Positions 47,595 to 62,986 of a stretch of DNA of 64,000 bases are shown piece after piece (within the stretch, counting starts at the first letter, position 1; the number at the start of each line of letters is the position of its first letter). A program made the position numbers and the translations under genes. Below the pieces are notes generated by a model, which searched no databases, was not told the origin of the DNA, and saw only the letters and a program-made list of their open reading frames with translations. The stretch comes from Bacteroidota bacterium (GTDB lineage Bacteria; Bacteroidota; Ignavibacteria; Ignavibacteriales; Ignavibacteriaceae). The stretch lies in assembly GCA_022564295.1 (NCBI GenBank), contig JADFLR010000005.1, forward strand, positions 62,001 to 126,000, given 5' to 3'.

Positions 47595-48959
47595 TTACTT
47601 GATCAGGATCATTCGCTTTGTATCTGTAAATAATACACTTCCGTTTTTACGAGCTATAACCCGGTAGATGTAAACTCCACTGGCTAAATTCTCACCGTTA
47701 AAGTTTATCTCGTAAATTCCTACCGGTTGTGTTTCGTTTAATAGTTCCAATACTTCCGTTCCTAACATATCATAAACCTTTAATGTTACATCTGCATCCT
47801 GGGCAAGTGAGTAGGAAATTACTGTTGACGGATTAAACGGGTTTGGATAATTCTGACTTAAAGAAAAATTCTCTATAATTTTTTCTACTTTATCTTTAAC
47901 GTTTGTTAATAAACTACTCTTATAAATACCTTGAGCAGTACCTATGTAAATGATATCATTAACTTGGTTAATAAATAAATTTGTCATTTGACCTACATCT
48001 GCGAATCTGAATCCGGCACTTCCTATATTTAAAGGTAATTCATCCGTCCCTTCAATTAACTGCCAATATATTGTGTCGTTCTTTGCAACATATAAACCAT
48101 CTCTTCTCAAGTTGAACAATTTATTTGGATGATTAGCATTCATATAAAAAGAAAGGTAGTTCTGATGGTTTGGTAATCCCGAATCAAAATCATACCAATT
48201 AAATTCATCGTTATCGGATGCCTTGTACTCTGCAAAAAGATATAATCTTCCAGGTAAAAATAGATCTGTCCTGGTCTCAACTGGAGATGCGAGCGGGGTT
48301 GAGATACGAAACCAACTAAAACCTTTGTTTGTACTTTTGTATAGATGTAGGTCAAACACAGTATCAACTGTTACAAACAAACTAGTACTATCAATCATAT
48401 CGAACGCGAATGTTAATGCAGACCCGTGACTTGAACCAGGGAAAGCTGAATTATTTATCCAGGTATTACCACCATCCGTACTTTTATATAAAATGTTAAT
48501 AAGCCCGGCTGGAAATGGGTTATAGGTAAGAGCATATACTTCATTTTTATTAAAAGGTGAAATCCCAAACCATTGAATTGAACTATTAATATTACTACTA
48601 ACATTATCCCATGTTTCACCATTATTTGTGGACTTATATAGAGTCCCTGCGACCGAATAGGCACCGCTACCTTTTAGTATAAATAAAGTTAAAGGGGGTA
48701 CAAGGTCGAAACCTAATATAACCCCGTCTCCAAGAGCACTGTCAATCTGCACCCAGTTGTTTCCAGCATCAGTAGAAAAATACAATCCTGATTTATCCAG
48801 ATTTCCAACTCTGTGTGCTGTTCCTGCCCAAATGGTATCACCTGAAACATATATTTGTTTTACAACAAGAGAATCCAGCCCAACAAACTCCCAGGTTTGG
48901 GCGTAAATACTAATTGTGGATAAAAGCAAGAAGAAAATTATAAAGACAGTTTTTTTCAA
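47595..48959 (-). CDS. Secreted beta-propeller protein with T9SS sorting domain
   Basis: The preferred start is TTG 48959, giving a 454-residue protein with signal peptide MKKTVFIIFFLLLSTISIYAQ. The open frame extends 49 residues further upstream but that part looks non-coding. The body shows repeated Asp-box/BNR-like motifs (LYFSTDAGNNWVQI, LYKSTNNGETWDNV, LYKSTDGGNTWINN, LYKSTNKGFSWFRI), as in sortilin/YCF48-type propellers. The C-terminal about 85 residues are a type A sorting domain (NYPNPFNPSTVISY, VYDMLGTEVLELLNE, GVYIYRVIA). Probably a surface or released binding protein; ligand unknown. Confidence 0.88.
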   Translation of the reverse strand: MKKTVFIIFFLLLSTISIYAQTWEFVGLDSLVVKQIYVSGDTIWAGTAHRVGNLDKSGLYFSTDAGNNWVQIDSALGDGVILGFDLVPPLTLFILKGSGAYSVAGTLYKSTNNGETWDNVSSNINSSIQWFGISPFNKNEVYALTYNPFPAGLINILYKSTDGGNTWINNSAFPGSSHGSALTFAFDMIDSTSLFVTVDTVFDLHLYKSTNKGFSWFRISTPLASPVETRTDLFLPGRLYLFAEYKASDNDEFNWYDFDSGLPNHQNYLSFYMNANHPNKLFNLRRDGLYVAKNDTIYWQLIEGTDELPLNIGSAGFRFADVGQMTNLFINQVNDIIYIGTAQGIYKSSLLTNVKDKVEKIIENFSLSQNYPNPFNPSTVISYSLAQDADVTLKVYDMLGTEVLELLNETQPVGIYEINFNGENLASGVYIYRVIARKNGSVLFTDTKRMILIK

Positions 48960-49437
48960 TTTCTTAACAGTTTTAGTTGCATAATAAAAAATATTTATAT
49001 TAATTACATTAGTACTTGTACTAACCTTTTTTGAATACTGTAATAATTTGATGGGGGAATCCAGGAGAACTGCAAGCCGGGCAAGGGTTATAATTTTAGA
49101 AAACAATTTTTATCCAGTCGGGAATATAACCAGCTCCCATCAACTGTCATATATCGATAAATAACATATTCAAAAAATTGATAAGGTACAAGTAAAACCG
49201 GTTTATTACTCATACAACCAACGGCTGCACTTGTAATGTAGGTATATTAATTCTTTACAGAAGCATTGCAGTTTTTTTACTTTATGGCAACTTGTGTTTG
49301 CCGGAGAGCCACCTGCGGGGACACAGGCGTATGCAGTGTTATATTTTTTTTACCGCAGAATAAAAAGAATCCCTTGCAACAAATATCTGCGCTTGGATAC
49401 AAACGAATACTATTTACAAATGACGATTGAACAAGAA
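48960..49437. other. Intergenic region with GC-rich patch
   Basis: No gene is supported. The stretch contains the unlikely 49-codon extension of the propeller gene and an AT-rich leader. A distinctly GC-rich patch at about 49300-49336 (GCCGGAGAGCCACCTGCGGG and following) is unlike the flanks in composition, with a second GC-richer patch near 49209-49222 (CCAACGGCTGCAC). A short frame through it has no ribosome binding site and no protein-like features. The patch may be a dispersed repeat or a recombination relic. Confidence 0.4.
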
Positions 49438-49899: not shown

Positions 49900-51366
49900 T
49901 TATTTTCCACGAGATTCTTTAAGTTTTGATTTTATAAGTTTTATTTCGCTTCTATCCACAGCAAAAAAGTAAAGATAAGAGATGAAAGCAATAAGCAGAA
50001 ATAATTTTTCTAACAATGCTAAATAATAATCTTCAAATAATACAAAATAGTAGAGCAATGCGGTTATAAATACTCCTATAAATATTTTAAATATTTTATC
50101 CCATTCATAGTTTATGTGATAAAATTTTTGTGTAACTGCATAATATCCTATTGCCATAACAAGGTACGCTGCAAGAGTTGCAAAAGCAGCTCCGTAAATT
50201 CCCATAACGGGTATCAGTGCTAAGTTTGCAGCTATATTAATAATTGCACCCGCACCGGCAATAAACGGCACATATAAACTTTTTTCTTCGATATAAATTC
50301 CTGCAGAATAAATTACGTAAAGACCATTAATCAAATAAGCGAAAAGAATAATTGGTACGATGTTTAGCCCGCTCCAATATGCCGAACCAATTAATGAATA
50401 TCCTTCAATTTGAATTTGTGCAATATCCGCCACGAACAATGAGACACCAACAACAATTATACTGCCCACGAGTGTAAAATAGGTTAATATTTTTGAAAAC
50501 ATTTCTTTAGCGTTTTCTTCTTTTGCATTTTGTAAAAAGAACGGCTGCCAGGCGTATTGAAACATATTCACAAACAGCATCATAAAAATACCTAGTTTGT
50601 AATTTGCTTTATAGATTCCAACTGTTTTTAAATTGGTCAATCTTTCAAGTATTGGAACATCAATTACCTGCACAACCATCACGGCTAATCCTGCAGGAAG
50701 ATACGGAAGACCGAATTTTGCAAACCGCTTAAAAAGAATTGTGTTAAATCTGAATCTGAAATTTTTTGCGATGGTAGGAATTAACAAAAGCAGCGACACA
50801 AAGGATGAAATAATATTGCTTAGTAATATTGCTTCGATGCCCCAATGTAATACCAGAATTAAATACAAGTTTAGAGCAAGGTTAGAAACAATATTTAATA
50901 TCTTTATTATGGAAAACTTTTTTGCTTCCCTGTTCAATCTAAGTTTTAAGAATGGTATTGAACCGCATGTATCCAAAAAGATGATTGCTACTGCAAGGTA
51001 AAGCAAGTAATGATATTCGGGTGGAATACCGAGTTTTGCAGCAATTGATTCTTTGAAATAAATAATAAAAAAACTAAATAGCAGAGATGTAAAGAATACA
51101 GAAATATAAGGTGTGGAAAAATTATCTTTTTCATTGCCAATATCTTTAAATGCTGCAAATTTAAGAAAAGCCGTATCCATCCCGTATATATAAAAAATAT
51201 TAAGGATTGCGATATAAGCGTAAATAATTTGTATAACACCATACTCCTCCGGAAGAAAAATGTTTGTGAAGAAAGGGATAAGCATAAAATTAAGGAATCT
51301 GCCAACCATTGTGCTGATACCGTAAATGGCTGTATCCATACTTAATTGTTTTAGCTTATCAAACAT
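49900..51366 (-). CDS. Polysaccharide flippase (Wzx-like, MATE/MOP superfamily)
   Basis: This 488-residue integral membrane protein has about 12-14 transmembrane helices. N-terminal DTAIYGISTMVGRFLNFMLIPFFTNIFLPEEYGVIQIIYAY is typical of oligosaccharide flippases (PST/RfbX family). These move undecaprenyl-linked glycan repeat units across the inner membrane. It is separated from the exopolysaccharide gene run by a thioesterase and accA but is likely part of the same glycan pathway. The 292-bp region upstream shows nothing recognised. Confidence 0.88.
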   Translation of the reverse strand: MFDKLKQLSMDTAIYGISTMVGRFLNFMLIPFFTNIFLPEEYGVIQIIYAYIAILNIFYIYGMDTAFLKFAAFKDIGNEKDNFSTPYISVFFTSLLFSFFIIYFKESIAAKLGIPPEYHYLLYLAVAIIFLDTCGSIPFLKLRLNREAKKFSIIKILNIVSNLALNLYLILVLHWGIEAILLSNIISSFVSLLLLIPTIAKNFRFRFNTILFKRFAKFGLPYLPAGLAVMVVQVIDVPILERLTNLKTVGIYKANYKLGIFMMLFVNMFQYAWQPFFLQNAKEENAKEMFSKILTYFTLVGSIIVVGVSLFVADIAQIQIEGYSLIGSAYWSGLNIVPIILFAYLINGLYVIYSAGIYIEEKSLYVPFIAGAGAIINIAANLALIPVMGIYGAAFATLAAYLVMAIGYYAVTQKFYHINYEWDKIFKIFIGVFITALLYYFVLFEDYYLALLEKLFLLIAFISYLYFFAVDRSEIKLIKSKLKESRGK

Positions 51367-52169: not shown

Positions 52170-53120
52170 TTACTCTATGTATTCACCCATACTTCCGAAT
52201 TTTTCCAACCTTTCTTCAATTAACTTTTCAGGTTTTATTTTAACCAATTTATCAAGTTCTTCCAACAATGCTGACTTTAAAGTATCGGCAGCAGCTTGAT
52301 GATCTTTATGAGCACCACCTAAGGGTTCTTCAATTATTCTATCAATTATTTTTTGTTCAAGAAGATCGGGGGCAGTAAGTTTTAAAGCTTCTGCAGCTTG
52401 TTCTTTATAATCCCAGTTTCTCCATAAAATACTTGAACAGGATTCGGGACTAATAACAGAATACCAGCAATTTTGTAACATTAAAATTCTATTGCCAACA
52501 CCAATTCCCAATGCTCCACCGCTTGCACCTTCACCGATTATTACTACAATTATTGGTACACGCAACCTGCTCATCTCAAAAAGATTTCTTGCAATTGCTT
52601 CGGCTTGTCCTCTTTCTTCAGCTTCAAGCCCGGGATAAGCGCCGGGTGTATCTAACAAGGTAATAACGGGTTTGTTAAATTTTTCGGCAAGCTTCATCAA
52701 TCGAAGTGCTTTCCTGTAACCTTCGGGATTTGCCATTCCAAAATTCCGGTACACATTTGATTTTGTGTCTCTTCCTTTTTGCTGCCCAATCAACATTACT
52801 TTGTAATCACCTAACTTTGCAAATCCTCCAACTATCGCTTTATCATCCCCGTAATGTCTGTCGCCATGTAACTCTATAAAATTTTCTGTCATCAAGTTGA
52901 TGTAATCTAAAGTGAAAGGTCTATCGGGATGGCGTGCAAGCTGTACTCTCTGCCATCTCGTTAAACCTTTGTATAATTCTTCCTTTAACTGAGCTACTTT
53001 TGTTTCTAATCGTAAGATGTCTTTCCCGATATCCAAACTAGCGGAAGATTCTTTCATCTCTTCAAGTTTTTCTTCAAGTTCGAATATCGGCTTTTCAAAA
53101 TCTAAAATTGTTTTTCCCAT
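52170..53120 (-). CDS. accA: Acetyl-CoA carboxylase carboxyltransferase subunit alpha
   Basis: This 316-residue subunit, with AccD, moves CO2 from biotin to acetyl-CoA to make malonyl-CoA. It shows the N-terminal helical part, then [55 protein letters not shown] and the oxyanion-hole region [18 protein letters not shown], all diagnostic. It is the last gene of the glycan run and is followed by a strong terminator. accD is not in the window. Confidence 0.97.
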
Positions 53121-53122
53121 TT

Positions 53123-55105
53123 TTAATCTCTTTTACTCCACATTTTATTTAATGCACGACCAAGGATTTCTAAATCGAGCCAAATGTTTTGATTTTTGGC
53201 GTAATAAAAATCGAGCTTTTCTGCTTCAACATCAAAGATATTTTCAATGTACCAAAAACCGGTAAGCCCTTGTCTTCCCATATAATATATTTTATCCGGA
53301 CTAATTTTCTTTGGGCCTACAAAACTCTTTGTGCCGATCACAACCGAAGGAACATTTAAAATAAAACTTCTAAAATCTGTTTTCTTTTTAGCAAGCTTTG
53401 AAATGAAATATATAAAAGGATAAATGAAAATCAAAACAAACAAGCCAAGTGTTATATCGAATAACCGTTTGATGAATTTAAGCGATGGACTTGATATGTT
53501 GTAATGAACTTCTATTAACGGAATGTCATCGAGCATAGAAACCGATGCTTTGCCTACAATAAAATCAAGCTCGGTACCGCTTATTTTAAATTCTACAGAT
53601 TCATTCTGGCAATCGGCAACCACTGCCATCATTTCACTGTAATTTAATTCTTCCGAAGAAAATATGACTTCACTTATTTTATTTTCAATAATAACTTTTC
53701 TAATATTTTCAATACTTCCAATAACTTCAAACGAATTTATTTTTTTGCCGATATCATCATGGTATTTCCCAATTAGCCCAACAACACTGTGATAATCAGT
53801 TCTCTTAAATTTTAATTTATCCGCTACATGAATTGCATGCCCGTTAATACCGACAACCAAAGTGCGGCTTTTGCTTACATCATCGAATTGGACACCAACC
53901 CTGAAAAAAAGTTTTAATACAATCCTCCAAAGTGAAGTTAAAGTCATCAGCAGAAGATATGCTATTAAAACTACTGCCCTGCTGTAAGCAAACTGCTTGA
54001 AGAAAAACGTAATGGATGTGAGAATAATAAAACTTACAATAACAGCAATAAAATTTCTCAACACAGAAAGCGAATCTCTCCTGTAAACTCCGGAGAGTGA
54101 TGCTATAATAATATGGATGATTGCGGGGACTGAATAAATAACAATGTAATCACCTGCTACAAAACCAAGCCAATCGCTGTAGCTCATATAAATTCTTTCA
54201 GCAAAGAAAAGACAAAGGTCGAATAGTAAAAAGTCAATCAATGCTGATAGTATGGCGAGTTTTCTTTTACCTAAAAATGCAAATACTTTTCTTACGCCAA
54301 TTGCTGAGCGAAGAATAACTTCAACAAGAAAAGAACTGGAAAAATGTTTTTTTACAAACAAGTGCATTGCATCATAAAACATTTTTGTTTCATCCAACCT
54401 GCTTCGCTTTGTGCTTTCTCCCTTGTAATGGATAATCTGCGTTGTGTGAACATAGTAAACTTTAAAGCCTGCTTGCTGTATCCGGTAACAAAGGTCGAGA
54501 TCTTCACCGTACATAAAAAACTCTTCATCAAAACCGCCAACTTTATCATAGGTCTCTTTTATCATCATCATAAAAGAACCGGAAATTGCATCCACTTCGT
54601 TGGTTTGATCTTCATCTAAATAAGTAAGGTTGTAACGGGCGAATAATTTACTCTTGGGGAAAAGGTTGCTTAATCCTGTTACCTTGCAGAACGATGTCCA
54701 CGGACCGGGAAAACTTCTTCTGCAGGCAAGCTGAAGTGTGCCGTCAGGATTTAGTATTTTACAGCCAGCTAAACCTGCTTCGGGATTATCTTCAAAGAAG
54801 CGAATCATTTTATCAAAAGTATCTTCACTAACAATCGCATCGGGATTAATTAGCAACAGATATTTTCCCTCTGCAATTTCCAATGCCTGATTGTTTGCTT
54901 TTCCGAATCCAAGATTTTCGGTATTTGCAATCAATTTAACAGATGAGAATTTTTTACGGATAAGTTCCACACTTCCGTCGTCGGAAGCGTTATCAACAAT
55001 TATTATTTCGTGTGAAATGTTTAATGAAGCTTTCTCGATAGAGTGGAGCAGGTTTTGAAGAAACTCTTTTACGTTATAATTAACTATGATTATTGAAAGT
55101 TCCAC
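53123..55105 (-). CDS. GT2 glycosyltransferase fused to a degenerate sugar-transferase module
   Basis: This is a 660-residue fusion. Residues 1-265 form a GT-A family 2 glycosyltransferase ([51 protein letters not shown]), like rhamnosyltransferases. Residues about 283-400 have four to five transmembrane helices. Residues about 410-520 resemble the CoA-binding-like domain of WbaP-type proteins. Residues 545-660 look like a bacterial sugar-transferase domain ([15 protein letters not shown], then [12 protein letters not shown] and [22 protein letters not shown]). The central block with QxRxG, KFRSM and the catalytic DELPQ is missing, so this end is probably inactive. Confidence 0.85.
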
Positions 55106-55113
55106 TGGTTTAC

Positions 55114-55839
55114 CTATTTAAGTATTCCGAACATACTTGCAAACCGCAGTTTCCAAACCATAACAATTGCTTCGCGCACAATTTTTCTAGACATTTTTGA
55201 AGTGCCTTTTACTCTATCTGTAAATACTATTGAAAGTTCTTTTATTTTAAATCCTTTTTTCCATGCTTTAAAAGTCATTTCAATCTGGAATGCATAACCG
55301 TTTGATTTTACTGCATCGAGATCAATTGCCTTAAGAACTTCCTTTCTGAAACATTTAAAACCGCTTGTTGCATCGCGAACGGGCAAACCTGTAATAACTC
55401 TCGTATACATATTGGCAAACAAACTTAGCATTAACCTCCTCATCGGCCAGTTAACAACATTAACTCCTTCTTTATACCGGCTTCCGAGCACAAGCTCATA
55501 AGTCTTTATTTCGTTAAGAAAATTTTGGATTTCATCCGGATCGTGTGAAAAATCCGCATCCATTTCAAAAATATAATCGTAATTATTTTCAAGGGCATAT
55601 TTAAAACCAGCTATATAAGCGGTTCCCAAACCCATTTTCTTTTCGCGTTTGATAAGTTTTATTCTCGGATTCTTTTCTGCTTCTTTTTCAACCCAGTTTG
55701 CTGTTCCATCAGGTGAGCTATCATCAACAATTAATACATCTATATTTTCATCTTTTGATAAAACTTCGGGCAATAATTTGGGAAGATTTTCCAATTCATC
55801 ATAAGTTGGGATAATAATAAGTGCTTTTTTATTTTCCAT
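55114..55839 (-). CDS. Polyprenol-phosphate mannosyltransferase-like GT2
   Basis: This 241-residue family 2 glycosyltransferase resembles dolichol-phosphate mannose synthase: VDDSSPDGT (38-46), FEMDADFSHDPDEI (the DxD motif, about 94-107), GSRYKEGVNVVNWPMRRL, ATSGFKCFRKEVL and QIEMTFKAWKKGFKIKELSIVFTDRVKGTSKM. It makes polyprenyl-phosphate-linked mannose or glucose on the cytoplasmic face. It has no C-terminal membrane part, so it is of the short type. It sits between the fusion protein and the sugar transferase genes. Confidence 0.88.
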   Translation of the reverse strand: MENKKALIIIPTYDELENLPKLLPEVLSKDENIDVLIVDDSSPDGTANWVEKEAEKNPRIKLIKREKKMGLGTAYIAGFKYALENNYDYIFEMDADFSHDPDEIQNFLNEIKTYELVLGSRYKEGVNVVNWPMRRLMLSLFANMYTRVITGLPVRDATSGFKCFRKEVLKAIDLDAVKSNGYAFQIEMTFKAWKKGFKIKELSIVFTDRVKGTSKMSRKIVREAIVMVWKLRFASMFGILK

Positions 55840-55877: not shown

Positions 55878-57284
55878 TTAATTATTAAAATGTCCCTGCC
55901 CAAACAATACAACAAAAATGGTTCTCATAATAATTTTAAAATCCATACGGAGCGACATATTCTCAATGTAAAAAAGATCGTAACGTAATTTTATTTTTAC
56001 ATCTTCAACCGATTCATCATATTTATGTTTTACCTGCGCCCAACCTGTAATACCGGGGCGTACTTTTAATCTTCTTTTATAATACGGAATCTCTTGTGAC
56101 AATTTCTCAACAAAAAATGGTCGTTCCGGGCGAGGACCTACAATGCTCATTTCCCCTTTAAGAACGTTTATCATTTGAGGCAGCTCATCTATCCTTACTC
56201 TTCTAACAATTTTACCAACACGTGTTACCCTCGGATCATCTTTCGATGACCAAACTGGTCCTGTATGTTTTTCAGCATCTTCATACATCGATCTAAATTT
56301 GATTATCCTGAAAGTAATACCGTTCATTCCGCTTCTTTCCTGTTTAAAAAAAACCGGACCTCTACTTTCTAATTTAATTGCAATTGCTGCACTAATAATT
56401 ACCGGAAATGAAATGATTAGAATAATAAGTGAGGTGAAAACATCCATCAGCCGTTTTAATTTCTTCTCCCATTCAGGCATTAACTCAGGCATAATATCGA
56501 TGAGCGGCATACCGTAAATTTGGGAAGTTCTTGCCTGTCCGCTTAATATTTCATATAAATCGGGTACAATTTTAAGACCGACTTCTTCATGCTCAAGTTT
56601 AGAAATAACTTTTACAAACAATTCATGATCTTCCTTTTCAAGAGCAATTATAACTTCCTTTGAATTCGTATTTTCTACAATGGTTACAATATCATCAACA
56701 GTACCAAGCACTTCTGTGCCTTTATAAAATTTTCCAACATTTTCTGGATTAACCGCTACATAAGCCGTAACATCGAGCCCCAGAGCGGGATGTTCTGCAA
56801 TTTGATCATACACTTCTTTTGCTTTTGGATTATAACCAACAATGATAGCACACTTCCTGCCGATTCCTTTAATAAGCAGTCTGCGCTGAAATCCGCGAAT
56901 CGCCAATCTTCCTGTACCAACAAATATGAGCAGTAAACCCCAATAGATGAAAATTAATATTCTGCTGCTCGATTGAACGTTGTGCAGGTAATCATCAATA
57001 AATATTACAGTGAATAGGATAAAGATACCGACAAAAGATGCTTTAAAAAGAGTTGATAATTCATCAAACCTTGATGCAGCGAACCATGTACGGTACATTC
57101 CAACAAACGTAAAAATGAGAAGCCAGTATACGTAAACAACAGTCATCGGGATATAAACTTCGGGCATGACAATAAGCTGAAACAATCCGGTCTCAACCCT
57201 GATATAAAAGAACACCACCCACGCAAGGTTGATAGTGAGGAAATCTATGAGGAGTACAAGTATTTTTTCAGTTTTTTTGTTCAT
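55878..57284 (-). CDS. Polyprenyl-phosphate sugar-1-phosphate transferase (WbaP/EpsE-like)
   Basis: This 468-residue initiating enzyme of exopolysaccharide synthesis transfers a sugar-1-phosphate to undecaprenyl phosphate. Four N-terminal transmembrane helices (about 8-125) are followed by a CoA-binding-like domain (about 140-260). The C-terminal sugar-transferase domain has KRLMDVFTSLIILIISFPV, FFKQERSGMNGITFRIIKFRSM, RIDELPQMINVLKGEMSIVGPRPERP and RPGITGWAQV. The catalytic Asp-Glu (DELPQ) is present, unlike in the neighbouring fusion protein. Confidence 0.93.
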   Translation of the reverse strand: MNKKTEKILVLLIDFLTINLAWVVFFYIRVETGLFQLIVMPEVYIPMTVVYVYWLLIFTFVGMYRTWFAASRFDELSTLFKASFVGIFILFTVIFIDDYLHNVQSSSRILIFIYWGLLLIFVGTGRLAIRGFQRRLLIKGIGRKCAIIVGYNPKAKEVYDQIAEHPALGLDVTAYVAVNPENVGKFYKGTEVLGTVDDIVTIVENTNSKEVIIALEKEDHELFVKVISKLEHEEVGLKIVPDLYEILSGQARTSQIYGMPLIDIMPELMPEWEKKLKRLMDVFTSLIILIISFPVIISAAIAIKLESRGPVFFKQERSGMNGITFRIIKFRSMYEDAEKHTGPVWSSKDDPRVTRVGKIVRRVRIDELPQMINVLKGEMSIVGPRPERPFFVEKLSQEIPYYKRRLKVRPGITGWAQVKHKYDESVEDVKIKLRYDLFYIENMSLRMDFKIIMRTIFVVLFGQGHFNN

Positions 57285-61201: not shown

Positions 61202-62986
61202 TTAAACTCTGGAAACTTCGATTTCTGAATAAAAGGGAAATGAAACTAATTTAAAATTAACGGACAATTTACTTGACAATCGTGATACATCATATGCAGG
61301 AAATATATTTATTGAATGTTCAGAAACATTAAACTTGCTTCTTGAATAAATCTTCATATGCCAGCTATTTTCCCGCCCACTAAGAATTATTACATCTTCA
61401 TTAACAATAAAAGTAATGTTTGGCGCCAGAATAAAGTTAATGAAAATATTGTGAACTCCAGTCCCTAATACTGAATCCTTTAAGATAATTCCAGCTTCAT
61501 TAAAGGAGACTTCTCTTTTATGTGTGAATTCACCTCTTTTCTTAAAACCGGTAAATTCTGCTCTCATCATCAAATTGTTTTTATAATTTACGGATTGTCT
61601 TAAATGAGAAGGAAGAAATGACCACCTAAAAAATCCCCACAGAAATGCTTGATCTTCCCCATCAACAGATAAAGTATTATGAGAAAGAGCTTTTTTCTGT
61701 AAGAGAGACTCTTCGATATTATTGTAAGTATTAGTCCCGGGATCAATGAATAAAAGTTCCTTGTTGAAATAAAGGATACTTAATAAATCAGAATGACCGT
61801 GACCAGGATTACTTTTATAACCAATATTTCCTATATCAAAAATAATTTTGGAATCACCAACTTGCGAAATTAAATAACTTTTAGTGATAACTAATTTATT
61901 ATCAGATTTCTTGTTATCATTTCGTTCACTTAAGATGAGATTAGTAAGTCTAATGCACAAATTAATATCCTCTTTAAGCGAAGAGTTCAAAAACGTGTAG
62001 CAGTTATCTCCAATCATAGGAATTGTTCCATCAGGAAAAAGAAAGCCTTTAATTAAATTGGATGCTTTTGCTATTTTATTTTTTACTTCAGTACTTATTT
62101 GCTGACCCAAAACCGATAAACCATAAAGCCAAATTAAGCTGAACAATGTAACCTGAACATGGTAGTGAAAACTGAATTCAAAATGTAATCCATCCTTATA
62201 AAATTCTTTGCCAATTTCTTTTAATAACTTATTTTTATTACGGGTAGAATAAACTTCAGAATTTTTCCATTCTGAAAAAATGTTATAAACCAACCATTGA
62301 GAAAAATATTGTATTAAAACATGGTTCCCGGGTACATGATTTTCGATATTGTGACTAATAATTTTCAAATGAAGTATAATAGAATTTACAATTTTCTCCC
62401 AATTATTTGACTCGGGTTGAAATTGATCAGGTAATGAATGCAGAATTTTCATCCAGTTAATAAGTCGCATTGATGTGTTAAAACCGTTCCATTTACTATT
62501 TCGTGAAACAGAGATATTATCAATCCACTCAACAATTATTGCAATTTTTTCTGGAGGTGTCATCTTTAATTCATTGGATATCTCAGCAATTAAGTGGAAC
62601 CTATACAGGTTATTCATAATTTCTAAATCAGTTCCTTCAAAATCATCCAGGTTCAATTGATAGTAAGATTTATTCTCAAGTACTTTTTTCATAAATAGCC
62701 GAAAGTATTTATCCTCGTGAATTAAACTATCCTCAGTAATTCTCCAGATTTTTACAAATCCAAACAATGAATTGATATTAGACTTAACCACACTATAATT
62801 ATGCAGATTTTCCTTATGTTTTAATACAAAGAATGGCAGATAAGGTTTGATGATTCTATTTATCAAAAAGTAAAATAATTGCTTAAATTCAAATCTTCTT
62901 ATATTATCACAATACAATAAAACCTTTTTTATAATGTTTAGTTGTAATGCATCAGGATTGTTTTTTGTTCTTTTATTTCTGCTCAT
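61202..62986 (-). CDS. Heparinase II/III-family protein
   Basis: This is a 594-residue protein. The N-terminal two thirds are an alpha/alpha-toroid (NWEKIVNSIILHLKIISHNIENHVPGNHVLIQYFSQWLVYN). The C-terminal beta-sandwich starts with YKSNPGHGHSDLLSILYFNKELLFIDPGTNTYN, carrying the conserved GHGHxD of heparinase II/III-like lyases. No signal peptide is present. Such proteins are common in exopolysaccharide loci (alginate-lyase-like) and may edit or degrade the polymer. The substrate is probably uronic-acid-containing, consistent with the AlgD-like gene divergent from it. Confidence 0.85.
   Translation of the reverse strand: MSRNKRTKNNPDALQLNIIKKVLLYCDNIRRFEFKQLFYFLINRIIKPYLPFFVLKHKENLHNYSVVKSNINSLFGFVKIWRITEDSLIHEDKYFRLFMKKVLENKSYYQLNLDDFEGTDLEIMNNLYRFHLIAEISNELKMTPPEKIAIIVEWIDNISVSRNSKWNGFNTSMRLINWMKILHSLPDQFQPESNNWEKIVNSIILHLKIISHNIENHVPGNHVLIQYFSQWLVYNIFSEWKNSEVYSTRNKNKLLKEIGKEFYKDGLHFEFSFHYHVQVTLFSLIWLYGLSVLGQQISTEVKNKIAKASNLIKGFLFPDGTIPMIGDNCYTFLNSSLKEDINLCIRLTNLILSERNDNKKSDNKLVITKSYLISQVGDSKIIFDIGNIGYKSNPGHGHSDLLSILYFNKELLFIDPGTNTYNNIEESLLQKKALSHNTLSVDGEDQAFLWGFFRWSFLPSHLRQSVNYKNNLMMRAEFTGFKKRGEFTHKREVSFNEAGIILKDSVLGTGVHNIFINFILAPNITFIVNEDVIILSGRENSWHMKIYSRSKFNVSEHSINIFPAYDVSRLSSKLSVNFKLVSFPFYSEIEVSRV

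Follow-up and report, generated by a model that had tools for sequence, protein, structure and literature searches.

Results

A GT2 Protein with a WbaP-Like C-Terminal Half.

The window analysed here, a 64,000-nucleotide stretch of contig JADFLR010000005.1 from an Ignavibacteriaceae bacterium (Bacteroidota), carries on its minus strand a gene cluster transcribed in the order WbaP, ppm-like GT2, fusion, accA, thioesterase, and wzx. The WbaP-type PGT (55878..57284, −) is intact by Pfam and by its QERSG, KFRSM, and DELPQ motifs. The ppm-like GT2 (55114..55839, −; Pfam/NCBIfam, synteny) resembles polyprenyl-phosphate-sugar synthases and lies directly upstream of the gene studied here, an ORF of 660 aa with a GTG start (53123-55105, −). 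Directly downstream, in the window and in most relatives, is accA (52170..53120, −), and a Wzx-like flippase gene (49900..51366, −) belongs to the same neighbourhood, both assigned by Pfam and synteny. The coordinates leave only 8 nt between the ppm-like gene and the fusion and 2 nt between the fusion and accA. The WbaP-ppm-fusion-accA order is conserved among relatives and is ancient. Also in the window are a T9SS type A sorting domain protein near the glycan locus (47595-49106, −) and, where the glycosyltransferase cluster has its upstream end, a heparinase II/III-like protein (61202-62986, −).

An earlier note on this DNA had read 53123-55105 as a single ORF joining a glycosyltransferase to a sugar transferase, and its coordinates, strand, and length hold. 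The GT2 domain (residues 1-270; 54296..55105, −), defined by Pfam, family conservation, and fold match, is followed by a WbaP-type bundle of four membrane helices (residues 278-411; 53873..54274, −), delimited by AlphaFold2 helices, a TIGR03025 match at 289-571, and a family profile that also matches the WbaP neighbour. Next come a PF13727 domain (residues 412-538; 53492..53872, −), assigned from Pfam and the WbaP literature with a beta-hairpin at about 510-535 (PMC10942596); a reentrant membrane helix (residues 540-572; 53390..53488, −) with Lys546-Arg547 and Pro563, placed by conservation, K-P spacing, and the PglC literature; and a PGT remnant (residues 573-660; 53126..53389, −) seen by Pfam and in the family alignment. 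PF13727 is annotated as CoA-binding and in WbaP is a dimerizing, uridine-nucleotide-binding DUF (PMC10942596). Pfam matches fall at 4-233 (GT2), 341-508 (CoA_binding_3), and 587-655 (Bac_transf), and the NCBIfam EPS_sugtrans model matches from residue 289 with a score far under its cut-off. The C-terminal half thus has the large-PGT (WbaP/WcaJ) architecture, with the bundle and PF13727 ahead of the PGT module, and it retains the helices, CoA-binding-like domain, and terminal motifs that the earlier note had recognized, the last being SxVG, K/R-x-GLTG, and YY..N...LD.EI.

The GT2 half is far more conserved than the rest of the protein. Asp38, the NPD at 87-89, the GED at 200-202, and His226 are essentially invariant among 153 family members, and the domain matches GalNAc-T2, WrtF, and RmlT in fold (Z about 20-23.5). 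Pfam, motifs, and fold agree on a GT-A domain with a nucleotide/metal motif and a catalytic base, suggesting that this N-terminal domain, the only intact active site of the fusion, is apparently an active glycosyltransferase.

Comparison of the whole protein by VIA-align listed GT2 matches only, and the C-terminal half was hence modelled alone. AlphaFold2 gave a pLDDT of 79.8 and pTM of 0.59 for the whole fusion and 78.7 and 0.48 for residues 272-660, pTM values at which the domain arrangement is unreliable. The structural comparison with WbaP that the earlier note had proposed gave a clear best Foldseek match of the C-terminal half to WbaP (8T53, E 2.4e-12), ahead of a next match at 4.7e-5 and then Rossmann-fold proteins; the overall rmsd was poor at 16 Å, and the relative domain positions are untrustworthy. 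WbaP was found by both sequence and fold. The hairpin (residues 512-527) was of low confidence in the monomer model, as reported for WbaP.

Loss of the Catalytic Block.

The Bac_transf match of the fusion covers profile positions 96-177 of 179 only, and that of the neighbour at 55878-57284 covers 1-178. The spacing between the KRxFD Lys and the SxVG Ser is 48 residues in the fusion and about 103 in intact WbaPs; the complete PGT module has a median length of 117 aa in the fusion family against 190 aa in intact WbaPs. The half-length match and shortened module bear out the earlier claim that the QxRxG, KFRSM, and DELPQ region, complete in the neighbour, is absent here. An alignment revealing a diverged but intact Asp-Glu dyad would have overturned that claim. 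Measuring positions from SxVG, we found two acidic residues at the aligned dyad position in 0/150 family members, excluding a dyad that has diverged in place, and DE in 117/118 syntenic WbaPs. Fusions from KSB1 and Marinimicrobia, read directly, align over an LPxxxxxLKGDMSxVG-like stretch with NK, SR, or AK in place of DE. A search of the fusion family for QxRxG and KFRSM motifs returned three isolated, apparently chance matches. The DDIP at 526-529 could be rejected as a hidden dyad: it belongs to the PF13727 beta-hairpin, precedes the reentrant helix, and aligns with YGMP of WbaP. An open frame and the same architecture in full-length relatives ruled out a pseudogene, a local deletion, or a frameshift concealing the catalytic block. 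Judged by its motifs and length, the module is a PGT-derived pseudoenzyme and not a catalytic PGT.

The single exception among the syntenic WbaPs (L128:4935-6263, +) has DK for DE, is without normal QxRxG and KFR motifs, and is apparently a second, independent pseudo-PGT. Another WbaP neighbour (L098:10955-13447, −) is N-terminally fused to a WecA-like polytopic PGT (Glycos_transf_4 by Pfam), so that one chain holds initiating transferases of two kinds; L085 and L075 are similar, and these proteins are 828-834 aa in size.

Residues Retained in the Module.

In PglC, the reentrant topology is set by Lys7-Arg8 and Ser23-Pro24, with a bond between Lys7 and Asp169, and polyprenol phosphate binding has been linked to Pro24 and to two basic residues, Arg88 and Arg145 (PMC6133551, PMC10519829). 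We mapped these positions onto the fusion through the alignment of its WbaP neighbour to PglC. Among 153 rows, the Lys7 equivalent (Lys546) is Lys in 142, the Arg8 equivalent (Arg547) is Arg in 117, the Pro24 equivalent (Pro563) is Pro in 136, and the Asp169 equivalent (Asp644) is Asp in 151; residue 611, equivalent to Arg145, is Lys or Arg in 133. The commonest Lys-to-Pro spacing, 17 residues (104 members), equals that of PglC, and by sequence alone the fusion has a reentrant helix with Lys-Arg and a helix-breaking Pro. The Arg88 region of PglC falls inside the deleted block. The catalytic site has thus gone, with most membrane and lipid-contact determinants retained. By analogy with PglC, the retained residues may still bind lipid, or they may serve folding alone.

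Distribution and Evolutionary History.

Close relatives, 55-80% identical along their whole length, were found in Ignavibacteria and related metagenome assemblies; KSB1 (42%), Marinimicrobia, and Calditrichaeota contigs carry more distant members. At a cut-off of E 1e-30, 144/149 class genomes had full-length or reduced homologues, as did 211/296 phylum genomes in a limited first look at 1e-45; both counts include some partial and GT2-only matches. After 120 further loci were fetched, 165 members were aligned, 153 of them at least 600 aa long. The search for fusions with the same deletion, which the earlier note had suggested, found the dyad missing in all 150 members compared. The missing block described there therefore stands, and the impression of a single odd gene does not, the architecture being class-wide and largely phylum-wide. 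Its recurrence across class and phylum beside the same genes marks the dead half as an enduring feature of the protein, as opposed to gene decay.

In a quick-method phylogeny of the helix bundle and PF13727, scored by SH-aLRT only, a single branch with support of 99 separated 58 fused modules from 33 WbaP-type proteins. For this unrooted tree, a single event of fusion and loss is the most economical interpretation, short of proof. Computed pairwise with the closest relatives, dN/dS was about 0.05-0.12 in GT2, the helix bundle, and PF13727, and in the PGT remnant it was 0.08-0.23, values taken only where dS was unsaturated, as several comparisons were saturated. These ratios indicate that the dead module is under purifying selection.

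Several members are reduced. Proteins from a Calditrichaeota (L029) and a bacterial contig (L030) stop after PF13727 and have lost the PGT remnant, which is only partly kept in L154 and L186 (family f27). Four GT2-only proteins of 392-428 aa (L170-L173) are nested among the fusions in the GT2 tree; hydropathy found no helix bundle in them, and three of the four match the PF13727 profile weakly. Because GT2 is kept in lineages without the membrane module, it is GT2 that stays constant, and derived lineages can dispense with the membrane module. Reading of neighbouring ORFs placed an E2-dehydrogenase-like gene next to L172 and also to L161, L164, and L167, and a GH3-like gene next to L170, L173, and also L163. 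Within a few kb of its fusion, L163 has a PMT_2-like (GT39-type) ORF (L163:12181-13881, −; Pfam), and a similar-looking one, judged by eye (L173:2693-4384, +), lies near the GT2-only gene in L173.

Discussion

The explanation we consider probable is that a WbaP-type PGT joined a GT2 before the divergence of the sampled lineages, leaving an active GT2 glycosyltransferase whose PGT pseudoenzyme would serve as a membrane and polyprenyl-lipid docking scaffold. In such a protein, a large monotopic PGT of the WbaP type, fused C-terminally to GT2 and, from its motifs, deprived of its site of sugar-phosphate transfer, would no longer initiate a glycan. Its helix bundle, PF13727, reentrant helix, and PGT remnant would instead hold GT2 at the inner leaflet. 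A genuine PGT or the neighbouring ppm enzyme would make a polyprenyl-linked sugar, which the dead module may present or orient so that the GT2 domain can add the next sugar. The earlier note had suggested such docking by a fusion of GT2 to a dead WbaP module. The fusion itself is well supported, and the retained PglC-type residues and purifying selection lend the docking role indirect support. An intact PGT is encoded in 147/149 class genomes, in keeping with this reading and ruling out a genome without one as the general case. That role is not always needed, as several lineages keep GT2 with little or no transmembrane region and a PF13727 vestige. The absence or reduction of the membrane module in some lineages argues against the scaffold in that the module is not essential to the role of GT2.

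The same reductions raise the question of whether the module is merely a generic membrane anchor that is drifting away, lipid recognition being irrelevant. The loss of the remnant in L029 and L030, its reduction in L154 and L186, the missing membrane bundle in L170, L171, and L173, and the much better conservation of GT2 than of the remainder are all consistent with drift. However, Lys, Asp, Tyr, and Gly in the dead module are near-invariant across phyla, dN/dS of the remnant is well under 1, and the fusion is near-universal in the class, so we regard a drifting anchor as rather unlikely. A possible, if doubtful, alternative is that the dead module pairs subunits, with PF13727 forming a heterodimer with the adjacent intact WbaP and bringing the GT2 site beside the initiating enzyme. 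WbaP dimerizes chiefly through the PF13727 beta-hairpin (PMC10942596); this hairpin region is present in the family, with the same low confidence in the monomer model as in WbaP, and most members have an intact WbaP gene in the same cluster. Homodimers would explain these facts equally well, and many members have no intact WbaP nearby.

PF13727 could also be the working part, sensing uridine nucleotides and regulating GT2, by analogy with the WbaP domain, which binds them (PMC10942596). The weak PF13727 matches that persist in the reduced GT2 proteins L171-L173 would fit a sensor, but these vestiges are short (37-50 residues), weak, and drawn from a 13-sequence set, and a sensor seems to us distinctly unlikely. 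That the shortened module gained a new catalytic activity is hardly credible: although a few of its residues stay invariant, those checked in the remnant are the ones that intact WbaPs also keep, and the family alignment contains no family-specific residue of catalytic type in the module.

The docking scaffold that we favour departs from known systems in defined ways. Like the large monotopic PGTs WbaP and WcaJ (TIGR03025/TIGR03022; 8T53, 9S7S), the fusion runs in the order bundle, PF13727, reentrant helix, terminal motifs; unlike them, it is without the Asp-Glu dyad, QxRxG, and KFRSM, its PGT module is about 70 residues shorter, and that module sits C-terminal to a GT2 domain. It keeps equivalents of Lys7, Arg8, Pro24, and Asp169 of the small monotopic PGT PglC and a basic residue at Arg145, but not the catalytic dyad or the Arg88 region. 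With the TIGR01556, RmlT, and WrtF GT2s it shares fold and catalytic motifs, whereas they have no counterpart of its WbaP-derived membrane half. Monotopic PGTs fused to other functional domains are known (PMC10942596), and here too a PGT fold is joined to a second domain; in contrast to those, the PGT part of this family is, by its sequence, catalytically dead in every member examined. Our search of the open-access literature found no description of a GT2-pseudoPGT fusion, although a prior mention is possible.

The pathway served may be suggested by the neighbours. The ppm-like enzyme occurs in 117/118 phylum genomes with one match each. Bacteroidota O-glycans have conserved reducing-end sugars that include mannose and rhamnose, and according to a 2025 review their shared core machinery is unidentified and the pathway resembles eukaryotic O-mannosylation (PMC12871550). 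A phylum-wide polyprenyl-phosphate-sugar synthase and a rhamnosyltransferase-like GT2, both of putative sugar specificity, would hypothetically fit the O-glycan core. We speculate, as a very unlikely extension, that the mannose-rhamnose core of Bacteroidota protein O-glycosylation is built by the ppm enzyme together with the fusion, or with the reduced orthologs of the fusion, the dead PGT being the lipid-docking platform. More generally, the family shows cleanly how an enzyme module can become a structural part and be retained for very long. The fusion permits a direct test of how glycosyltransferases locate lipid-linked acceptors, and its conserved neighbourhood points to one of the phylum's core steps in making envelope glycans.
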